A program made the translations under genes and the position numbers. Of a stretch of 40,617 nucleotides of DNA, positions 19,932-22,716 are shown one piece after another. Each line of letters starts with the position of its first letter. Position 1 is the stretch's first letter. The notes beneath the pieces are model-generated. The model did no database searches. It saw nothing but the letters and a program-made list of their open reading frames with translations, and was not told the DNA's origin. Origin of the DNA: a virus; IMG/VR virus record IMGVR_UViG_3300020171_000073, positions 1 to 40,617 of that record; one strand, given 5' to 3'.

Positions 19932-20143
19932 CTTTTAAGGAATTAAGTATAAAAAGGCATAACAAGAGATTAAAGCGTGAAGCCCTTTTAGAAAGCAGGC
20001 GTAAAAGCGGTTTTTACAATAGGGGGATAAGTTTAAAAGAACCGGCAATTATCAAATCGGATATTATAAAAATAAGCTGGTTTAAGAAATTTATTAATTG
20101 GGTAAAAAGTTTATTATATGTGTGCAACCGAAAGGCAAGCTAA
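19928..20143 (+). CDS. small very basic protein
   Basis: 71 residues, rich in Lys/Arg (LSIKRHNKRLKREALLESRR) with an amphipathic aromatic end (SWFKKFINWVKSLLYV). Could bind DNA or membrane. Its 3' end overlaps the small terminase gene by 26 bases. Confidence 0.5.
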   Translation: MTFKELSIKRHNKRLKREALLESRRKSGFYNRGISLKEPAIIKSDIIKISWFKKFINWVKSLLYVCNRKAS

Positions 20144-20552
20144 TGAACGGCAAAAGAAAGTGGCAATAGAATTGATTAAAAATATTAAAAATAATCCGGT
20201 GGTAAATGCGAGTGAGCTGTTGGAAACAGTTGGATATACAAGAAATACAGCAAGACATAAACAAAAAACTATAATTCAAAGCAAAGGCGTGCAAAATGAG
20301 TTAAGACCCGTATTGAAAAAATTGATAGAAAAAAGAGAATTAGTAATTAAGGCATTAACAGGTGAAAAGATTGAAGCGGAAAAAGCAAAAGATTTAGTTG
20401 ATATGCTTGATAAACTCACTAAAAATATAGAACTTTTAAGTGGTAGGCCGACTGAAAACATAAATAATCCCTATGAGAACCAACAACTCCGCAAGATTGC
20501 GGACAGAATTAGAGGAAGAAATCCAGATGGTCAGGCAGATGGCGCAGAGTGA
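20118..20552 (+). CDS. terS: terminase small subunit
   Basis: 144 residues. The N-terminal half (ERQKKVAIELIKNIKNNPVV, NASELLETVGYTRNTARHK, SKGVQNELRPVLKKL) has the helix-turn-helix and GVQ-type linker seen in many TerS proteins. A long helix follows (KLIEKRELVIKALTGEKIEA) and a polar end (PENQQLRKIADRIRG-like). TerS recognises the pac/cos site and stimulates TerL. It directly precedes TerL and overlaps its start by 80 bases, a large overlap that leaves the TerL start uncertain. Confidence 0.75.
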   Translation: MCATERQANERQKKVAIELIKNIKNNPVVNASELLETVGYTRNTARHKQKTIIQSKGVQNELRPVLKKLIEKRELVIKALTGEKIEAEKAKDLVDMLDKLTKNIELLSGRPTENINNPYENQQLRKIADRIRGRNPDGQADGAE

Positions 20553-22716
20553 GCTTATATCCTTTGAAATAGCGACTAATAAAAATTATGAACCTAACTG
20601 GCATCACGAAATAATCGCTGAATCATTACAAGATATTGAAGCGGGTAAATTGAGATATTTGATGATAATGTGTCCGCCGAGAAGCGGGAAAAGTCAACAA
20701 GCAACAATAGATTTTCCAGCGTGGTATTTAGGCAAACATCCAGATAAGGAAGTAATTACCGCAAGTTATTCAGGCGAACTTGCTTTCAAGTTTGGCGGTG
20801 AGACCAGAGACTTGATAAGTTCGGTAGCTTATAAGTCAATTTTCCCCAATGTTCTTTTAAAAGAAGATGAAAAAAGCAAAGGGAACTGGCGGACTAGACA
20901 AAATGGAAGTTATATCTCATTAGGCATCGGCGGAGCGGCGACTGGCCGGGGCGCTGATATATTTATCATTGATGACCCTTTAAAAAACAGGGAAGAAGCT
21001 AACAGCCAGACTTTCAGGGACTCGAGGTGGGACTGGTATCGTTCAACCGCCAGGACTAGATTATCACCCACCGGAGCAATAATTTTAATTCTTTGTTTAA
21101 CTGGCGATACATCAATTTTAATGGCTGATGGTTCAAAAAAATTGCTTCGTGACATACGAATAGGAGATAGAGTTAAAACATATAATAATGGAAAGTTGTC
21201 TGATTCGTTCGTTAAAAATTGGAAGAACAATGGTCAAGATTTTATCTTGAAAATTATAACGAGTTCTGGTAGAATTATAAGAGGAAATGAAAGACATCCA
21301 TTTCTTACTTATCATAACGGTAAATTACAATGGACAAGAATCAAAGACTTAACTACGGAACACAAAATCGTAACCTTAAAGGACAGTGGGGAAAATGGAA
21401 AGGAAAACATTGCCTTGAATGTAAAAAGCCAGTTTCAGCACAAGGGTATTGTTCCTCGCACTATGCGAAGAAAATGTGGGCTGATGGTTATCGTTCACCA
21501 TCTTTTTATAATAAAAGGTCTCGCCTTAATACGAAACTCAAGTTTCTTTATGGCATTACTCTTGAGGAATATGAGAGACTTAGTAAAGAACAAGATGGAA
21601 AGTGTGCCATTTGCGGGCAACTGCCTGAAATTAATGCTCGTGCCCGCTGGAGTGGCAAGCTCTGCGTTGACCACTGCCATAAAACAGGAAAAGTTAGAGG
21701 ATTGTTATGCAATAATTGCAACCTCGCAATTGGATATTCTAAAACTGAAAAAACAGCCCTTGCTGTGGCAAAATACATCAGATTTCACTCTTGAAGATAT
21801 TATTTCAGTTAATCCTGATGGCGTTGAAGAGGTATTTGATATACAGATAGAAAAAACTGAAAATTTTATAGCTAATGGCGTTGTTAGTCATAACACTCGG
21901 TGGCATAAAGACGATTTGGCCGGCAGACTTCTTGCACAAGAGGGCGATAAATGGAAAGTTATTTGTTTTCCAGCAATAGCCATTGAAGATGAAAAGTTTA
22001 GAAAAAAAGGCGAGGCATTATGGCCCAGCAGATATTCGCTTAAAGAGATTTTAGATATAAAAAATACCTTAGGAAGTTATGAATTTTCAGCTCTTTATCA
22101 GCAAACTCCTATTTCTTCCGAGAGCCAGGAGTTCAAAGAAAGCTGGTTTAAATATAGGACTTTGGAATATGTTGACCATCTGCAGACCAGAAACTTTTTA
22201 ACGATAGATACGGCAATGAGTGAGAAAGCCAGCGCGGATAATGTGGGTTGGTGCAGGAACTTCGTTGACAGGGAGAATAACTGGAATTTGATAGCTTTCA
22301 AGACCAAAGATAATCCAAGGGATTTAATCAGCAGGATATTTCAACTCCAGGAAGAAGATGGCTATGAAAAGATAGGCATTGAAAAGACGATTTATTCCGA
22401 TGTGCTTAAGTTTTTACTTGAAGATGAACAGAGAAAAAGGAATAAGTTTCTACCAATCGTAATGGTGGAGCATAAGCAGATAGCCAAAGAAACCAGAATT
22501 AGAGGTTTGATACCGAGATATGAAAATAAGACTATCTACCATATTGACGCTAAAGATTTAGAGGAAGAACTTTTAAACTTTCCTAAAGGGGTTCACGATG
22601 ATGTGTGCGACGCCGCCGCTTACCAATTCCAAATAGCCGAACCTCCGGCGGGATTAAGGGAAGAATTGGGAGTTTTGAATAATCGCAAGAGGTTCGGGCA
22701 TAATTTAACAAAATGA
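20473..22716 (+). CDS. terL: terminase large subunit (TerL), interrupted by an intein
   Basis: 747 residues as translated, 480 after removal of the 267-residue intein. ATPase: Walker A CPPRSGKS at 67-74, Walker B ADIFIIDD ending at 168. The coupling motif TRWHKDDLAGRL follows the intein. Nuclease: FLTIDTAMSEKASADNVGW gives the first Asp, and the end holds GVHDDVCDAAAYQF. TerL cuts and pumps DNA through the portal. The intein lies just before the TRW motif, at residues 208-474, so active enzyme requires splicing. ATG 20473 is the first start; an inner Met (QMVRQM) is possible because of the long overlap with terS. A separate HNH gene lies in another frame within the intein. Confidence 0.95.
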   Translation: MRTNNSARLRTELEEEIQMVRQMAQSELISFEIATNKNYEPNWHHEIIAESLQDIEAGKLRYLMIMCPPRSGKSQQATIDFPAWYLGKHPDKEVITASYSGELAFKFGGETRDLISSVAYKSIFPNVLLKEDEKSKGNWRTRQNGSYISLGIGGAATGRGADIFIIDDPLKNREEANSQTFRDSRWDWYRSTARTRLSPTGAIILILCLTGDTSILMADGSKKLLRDIRIGDRVKTYNNGKLSDSFVKNWKNNGQDFILKIITSSGRIIRGNERHPFLTYHNGKLQWTRIKDLTTEHKIVTLKDSGENGKENIALNVKSQFQHKGIVPRTMRRKCGLMVIVHHLFIIKGLALIRNSSFFMALLLRNMRDLVKNKMESVPFAGNCLKLMLVPAGVASSALTTAIKQEKLEDCYAIIATSQLDILKLKKQPLLWQNTSDFTLEDIISVNPDGVEEVFDIQIEKTENFIANGVVSHNTRWHKDDLAGRLLAQEGDKWKVICFPAIAIEDEKFRKKGEALWPSRYSLKEILDIKNTLGSYEFSALYQQTPISSESQEFKESWFKYRTLEYVDHLQTRNFLTIDTAMSEKASADNVGWCRNFVDRENNWNLIAFKTKDNPRDLISRIFQLQEEDGYEKIGIEKTIYSDVLKFLLEDEQRKRNKFLPIVMVEHKQIAKETRIRGLIPRYENKTIYHIDAKDLEEELLNFPKGVHDDVCDAAAYQFQIAEPPAGLREELGVLNNRKRFGHNLTK
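21094..21894 (+). mobile_element. intein in TerL
   Basis: Codons 208-474. The N-terminal splicing block is C1-LTGDTSILMADGSKK, with IRIGDRVKTYNNGK. Block B is RGNERHPFLTYHNGKLQW, with the TxxH-type His. The C-terminal blocks are VFDIQIEKTENFIANGV and VVSHN, followed by Thr as +1 residue. Cys1, penultimate His and final Asn are present, so splicing looks feasible. Between about intein residues 97 and 230 the TerL frame has no recognisable domain; that DNA instead encodes an HNH enzyme in another frame. Confidence 0.92.
21330..21794 (+). CDS. endonuclease-VII-like HNH gene nested out of frame within the intein
   Basis: 154 residues, in the -1 frame relative to TerL, wholly inside the intein. 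N-terminal possible zinc part: HCLECKKPVSAQGYCSSHYA. The catalytic part is typical of recombination endonuclease VII: YGITLEEYERLSKEQDGKC, AICGQ, CVDHCHKTGKVRGLLCNNCN, LAIGYSK. It has its own ATG and its own TGA 100 bases before the intein end. An in-frame TAA lies two codons before ATG, so there is no longer fusion in this frame. It has no SD, like most genes here. It probably acts as the intein's homing endonuclease in trans. Two compensating sequencing indels are the alternative explanation. Confidence 0.85.
   Translation: MDKNQRLNYGTQNRNLKGQWGKWKGKHCLECKKPVSAQGYCSSHYAKKMWADGYRSPSFYNKRSRLNTKLKFLYGITLEEYERLSKEQDGKCAICGQLPEINARARWSGKLCVDHCHKTGKVRGLLCNNCNLAIGYSKTEKTALAVAKYIRFHS

Follow-up and report, generated by a model that had tools for sequence, protein, structure and literature searches.

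The terminase large subunit (TerL) gene of the virus analysed here very probably carries a mobile intein at its C-motif whose homing endonuclease has a gene of its own, written over the intein linker in the -1 frame; this nuclease would be internally initiated and would prompt copying of the whole unit. The window, meaning the whole stretch of DNA that was analysed, comprises 40,617 nucleotides (positions 1-40,617 of IMG/VR record IMGVR_UViG_3300020171_000073). All coordinates without another label are window positions, and the terL, intein and nuclease features lie on the plus strand.

The terL intein and its nested gene

The terL gene (20473-22716) is a single open frame of 747 codons with an intein inside, and it matches Terminase_6N (1.1e-11). 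The N-extein (20473-21093) ends in ...AIILIL at the C-motif, and the C-extein (21895-22716) begins with TRWH. Removal of the intein gives a continuous, conserved TerL, and the site also occurs empty, reading ILTRWH in locus L002 and IATRWH in locus L003. Upstream, an ORF at 20118-20552 overlaps the terL start by 80 bases; its position suggests a small terminase subunit, and it matches no Pfam family.

The intein itself (21094-21894, 267 aa) runs from C1 to VVSHN and is followed by T+1. The sequence-only reading of this DNA had described splicing blocks at both ends of the TerL frame, and profile searches agree: Pfam Intein_splicing (4.8e-17) and both NCBIfam intein_Nterm and intein_Cterm match this frame. 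The marks C1, G-D-T, HPF, FIANGVVSHN and T+1 are all present, with invariant columns as further support. The element is a class 1 type intein inserted at the TerL C-motif. An AlphaFold2 model built with 29 family members gives a pLDDT of mostly 93-98 for aa 1-90 and 228-267, that is, for the N-terminal splicing half (aa 1-99, 21094-21390) and the C-terminal splicing half (aa 228-267, 21775-21894). Both halves match PDB inteins, and the folded part resembles mini-inteins such as Ssp and Npu DnaB in structure matches. Between them, the linker (aa 100-227, 21391-21774) is predicted to be disordered (pLDDT about 30-40), and its residues are not conserved. As had been noticed from the letters alone, its translation in the TerL frame resembles no domain; Pfam returned no match. 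Splicing of the window intein is predicted from these blocks and from the Chandler homologue, whose TerL6-f intein splices efficiently in E. coli (Kelley et al. 2016, PMC5050341).

Within this intein lies a complete endonuclease VII (EndoVII)-type (DHHRN/HNH-like) gene of 154 aa (21330-21794), running from ATG to TGA. Its offset from the TerL frame is 857 (remainder 2), which places it in the -1 frame, and it matches Pfam Endonuclease_7 (PF02945, 1.2e-20); the earlier proposal of a full out-of-frame nuclease with its own start and stop is thereby borne out. The start codon (21330-21332) takes its first base from the end of the Gln codon CAA and its other two from the beginning of the Trp codon TGG, both read in the intein frame, and a TAA (21321-21323) closes the nuclease frame shortly upstream. 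Codons 1-17 (21330-21380) overlap the splicing domain of the intein; in this stretch the confidence of the nuclease model is low, and over the first codons the intein frame is at least equally conserved.

The remainder of the protein carries the marks of its family. An invariant Cys-x2-Cys...Cys-x2-His (C28, C31, C41 and H44; 21411-21461) is a probable N-terminal zinc site, followed by the Pfam endonuclease VII domain (aa 69-150, 21534-21779). Catalytic D114-H115-x-H117 (21669-21680) corresponds to D40, H41 and H43 of T4 EndoVII, while R123 and C127-x2-C130-N131 (21696-21722) correspond to R54, the second CxxC and N62 (residue roles: PMC6083498). In the alignment of nested nucleases, C92, C95, D114, H115, R123, C127, C130 and N131 are invariant and H117 is nearly so; the EndoVII/DHHRN pattern CxxC...DHxH...R...CxxCN is complete. 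The protein model has a pLDDT of 85, with the first 20 residues uncertain. By sequence profile the closest solved relatives are T4 EndoVII (1.3e-8) and Hpy99I, and the top Foldseek matches are likewise these two, with weak E-values (0.03). Four other members (L015, L019, L020 and L088) encode longer nucleases with an additional zinc module at the N-terminus, which likewise lies nested and introduces no stops into the intein frame. A search for a second nuclease copy in four related records matched the nested one alone.

Spread, mobility and decay of the element

Viral contigs, bacterial genomes and phage records were searched with both the nuclease and the intein as queries; for the intein query, the best 80 of 462 relatives were kept. 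At least 184 loci, with at least 131 distinct nuclease DNAs, contain the nuclease inside a TerL intein at one fixed frame offset, and the insertion site is identical across elements (QC-MTGDT...HN-T(R/W)W). The canonical homing-intein arrangement, in which the nuclease is fused in frame between the splicing blocks, is absent from the set: every element has its nuclease in the -1 frame. Homologues with the same nuclease always in frame had been named beforehand as the finding that would count against the sequence-only reading. Among the loci found with the two queries (best 80 of 462 for the intein), none had the nuclease fused to the intein frame or placed in the third one.

Members from isolated phages include Chandler, Phlyer, AlanGrant, phi1_186018, Angelicage, Affeca and Nordenberg, with complete genomes for Chandler, Phlyer, Angelicage and AlanGrant. 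In the records examined, only the terminase is annotated, together with the intein in Phlyer; the nested nuclease was missed. Occurrences in bacterial genomes lie on contigs labelled Anaerolineae, Gallionellaceae, Endozoicomonas, Nonomuraea and Mycolicibacterium. Some TerL genes (L021, L337, L400 and L401) have an apparent second intein upstream of the nested one.

Several comparisons point to mobility. Chandler TerL differs from Philly TerL by a clean, gap-free 762-bp insertion, with 99.5% identity outside it, and Angelicage differs from Paries by a clean 795-bp insertion (97.9% identity). Bernardo, like Philly, is free of the intein. The nested inteins of Angelicage and Nordenberg occupy one and the same site in closely similar TerLs, yet they are clearly different from each other. 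In three further loci (L008, L010 and L012) the nucleases are 78-84% identical and the splicing domains 79-85% identical, while the TerLs share only 30-43% identity. These sequence comparisons indicate that intein and nuclease move as one unit, including between divergent TerLs.

Nuclease-less inteins were sought with a fused query of the N- and C-terminal parts. The shortened inteins that this recovered (L327-L330 and L021) are deletion derivatives: an in-frame deletion has taken out the central part of the nuclease and left both its ends and both open frames, which looks like the decay stage of a homing cycle. A member from a bacterial genome bin (L249) has an in-frame stop in the nuclease; its intein frame is still open over the nuclease. 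In L099, a single 1-bp indel near positions 2178-2637 of that locus breaks both the intein and the nuclease frames, and it is either a sequencing error or the mark of a dead copy. As for origin, an EndoVII gene could have been inserted out of frame into an intein loop in a GC-rich host. It could have been tolerated there at once, because the +1 frame of stand-alone EndoVII genes of 62% GC or more is open by chance in 16 of 41 cases. Avoidance of stops could then have been maintained later in AT-rich genomes such as the window.

Probable internal start and dual coding

The nuclease start is tied to a conserved Trp codon (TGG) that follows closely on block B: the TG of this codon is joined to the final base of the codon before it. 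A start codon is present in 128 of 128 elements (107 ATG and 21 GTG). Where the third base before the Trp is free to vary, it is a purine in 23 of 23 cases against 10.8 expected (product of codon frequencies 5e-9, a probability that is indicative only, since the elements are related to each other). With the same reservation about relatedness, a Lys, Gln or Glu codon before the Trp ends in A in 91 of 105 cases (46 expected), and a Shine-Dalgarno (SD)-like tetramer occurs in 105 of 128 elements (63 expected from synonymous codons). A GGAG is written into the intein codons about 8-11 bases upstream of the nuclease start. These patterns indicate that the start codon is under codon-level selection, and a selected start codon together with the usual SD motif argues that the nuclease would be translated by internal initiation, not by frameshifting.

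The window element is without a clear SD motif, and the genes of the window phage rarely have one (2 of 27 and 1 of 18 ORFs). This rarity, and the fact that no tRNA was found in the window, are hints of a host that can do without SD motifs. Whether nested genes carry SD motifs in step with the other genes of their contig was compared using mechanical ORF lists, and no usable signal emerged.

The openness of the intein frame over the nuclease is far from what the nuclease alone would give. In the window, fixing the nuclease protein and drawing its codons from the TerL gene yields a mean of 7.7 intein-frame stops and 0 open frames in 20,000 trials. When the codons of the ORF itself are shuffled, the intein frame stays open in 15% of trials (P = 0.15), because the codon usage of the ORF already shuns the offending codons. 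The third frame over the window nuclease contains 21 stops. Across 96 non-redundant elements, 336 stops would be expected in the intein frame and 0 are seen; the third frame contains 1213. At below 45% GC, the +1 frame is open in 0 of 51 stand-alone EndoVII relatives and in 10 of 10 nested ones.

Conservation passes from one frame to the other along the overlap. Over nuclease codons 1-8 identity is 0.68 in the intein frame and 0.49 in the nuclease frame; the nuclease frame leads from codon 18, with an identity of 0.98 over codons 18-26, and over codons 31-148 it reaches 0.63 against 0.31 for the intein frame. Codon-position bias is present in the nuclease frame, and fourfold sites of the nuclease vary as they do in stand-alone relatives at comparable protein identity. 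The unconserved linker residues and the free synonymous sites suggest that the linker is not selected as a protein and must only stay open. Selection on dual coding is supported by these sequence patterns. The earlier suggestion that selection keeps both frames thus holds for the absence of stops; as a conserved protein the linker does not qualify, being merely kept open.

Proposed mechanism, alternatives and relation to known systems

The proposed cycle has two readings of the same mRNA. Ribosomes reading terL would make TerL with the intein, from which the splicing halves would excise the intein together with its disordered linker. Other ribosomes would start at the ATG or GTG after block B and produce a free EndoVII-type nuclease. 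This nuclease would cut intein-free TerL genes at the C-motif, and repair from an intein-bearing copy would copy the whole unit. Nuclease expression, cleavage of empty sites and homing can so far be inferred from sequence; for the homing role of an EndoVII-type enzyme, the presence/absence polymorphism and the transfer between TerLs are the grounds.

Of the other explanations, the least improbable, though still unlikely, is that the nuclease has no homing function and serves packaging or recombination as an accessory. In its favour, the nuclease sits in terL, the EndoVII of T4 resolves branched DNA, and HNH proteins with a packaging role occur beside terminase genes. Against such a function, phages with a 99.5% identical TerL live without intein and nuclease, nuclease-deleted and broken copies (L249) persist, and the nuclease travels with the intein between divergent TerLs. 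Programmed -1 frameshifting to a TerL-intein-nuclease fusion is very unlikely. The nuclease frame does lie in the usual direction of such shifts, but a slippery heptamer occurs in just 11 of 128 elements, at scattered positions, and the nuclease frame is open upstream of its start for a median of 5 codons (0 in 13 elements). A frameshift would also leave the conserved, selected ATG or GTG and the SD-like motif without a role. Internal initiation, which had been favoured over frameshifting from the window alone, therefore gains from the wider set.

A chance overlap, in which the nuclease is real and base composition alone leaves the intein frame open, has a smaller probability still. It would suit the GC-rich stand-alone relatives whose +1 frame is open in 16 of 41 cases, but it does not fit the low-GC genes (0 of 51 against 10 of 10) or the missing 336 stops, and a full-length TerL needs an open TerL frame in any case. 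Barely worth entertaining is the idea that two compensating indels, real or due to sequencing errors, shifted what had been a conventional in-frame nuclease into another frame. Data of this kind do contain indel errors, as the 1-bp indel of L099 illustrates, but the frame relation is shared by at least 131 distinct DNAs, isolate genomes included, and no in-frame nuclease appeared among the loci found. Because the architecture recurs unchanged in many loci that were sequenced independently, isolate phages among them, compensating assembly errors are ruled out.

Outside inteins, phage genes with an endonuclease in another frame are already known. The closest precedent is the ShiLan domain and the Pacc40 insertion, where methylase genes of phages contain an HNH endonuclease out of frame (Arsenault et al. 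2025, PMC11855218). In these insertions and in the window element alike, the host frame stays open across an HNH endonuclease that has a start codon of its own in another frame; the published insertions too are mobile, and their host-frame product is predicted to be disordered or looping (PMC11855218). The two systems differ in that the ShiLan insertion has no intein or intron splicing domain and stays in the host protein, whereas the window element is a complete intein with a complete splicing domain; the host gene is also another one (methylase versus TerL), and no ribosome-binding site was found there (PMC11855218), whereas the TerL elements often have SD-like motifs and a selected start codon. 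One further locus, L042, has an EndoVII ORF (1187-1738 of that locus) nested at the same frame offset in a terminase frame of TerL1 type (297-2624), which is open and has neither intein blocks nor an Rfam intron: a ShiLan-like element in a second terminase family. Introns were sought, and Rfam gave no match in the window or in L042.

Split inteins provide another comparison. In 2009 Dassa et al. reportedly described fractured genes whose inteins are split and accompanied by a separate gene for the endonuclease. There, as here, an ORF of its own encodes the endonuclease and is physically linked to the intein; that intein, however, is divided between two genes, whereas the window intein is one continuous frame overlapped by the endonuclease.

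Among enzymes, F-CphI is an EndoVII-type homing endonuclease of the DHHRN family, with DHxH between two CxxC motifs, an R, an N after the second CxxC and a C-terminal EndoVII domain, as in the nested nuclease (PMC6083498). Homing use is shown for F-CphI or inferred for intron-encoded relatives; unlike the nested nuclease, the homing members of this family are free-standing or intron-encoded (PMC6083498). Among inteins, the TerL6-f group of mycobacteriophages is directly relevant, as its tested example, Chandler, belongs to the nested-nuclease family (Kelley et al. 2016, PMC5050341). Searches of that paper's text found no mention of a nested nuclease, and there cleavage appears as tested for two other TerL inteins only, both with in-frame LAGLIDADG domains. 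A 2025 preprint by Gosselin, Arsenault and Gogarten on actinobacteriophage inteins with a 'non-canonical architecture' (doi 10.1101/2025.01.02.630785) and 'Non-canonical inteins' (Gorbalenya 1998) are both cited in PMC11855218 for overlapping frames, and to judge from these citations either or both may already describe an out-of-frame endonuclease in an intein. No description of an out-of-frame nuclease inside an intein was found in the literature searched, a scope outside which these two works lie. The chances are evenly balanced that the present elements represent a broad, previously undescribed class of phage inteins, in which one DNA stretch would yield two proteins, namely an intein with disordered filler in the usual place of an endonuclease and a freely translated EndoVII-type homing endonuclease started within the intein gene; splicing and homing would share no polypeptide, and each could be lost separately while both frames are respected.

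An intein normally carries its homing endonuclease as an in-frame domain, since the reading of the host protein must not be interrupted. The nested family meets this constraint by overprinting: the linker merely avoids stops, and a full enzyme evolves in the other frame. This family supplies many natural examples of overlapping genes whose mechanistic logic is clear, and annotations miss the nuclease half even in well-studied phages. Near-identical M. smegmatis phages with and without the element are a ready test system, and the separation of splicing from homing makes the evolutionary cost of each measurable. One DNA stretch probably encodes both a self-removing insert and the enzyme that spreads this insert.
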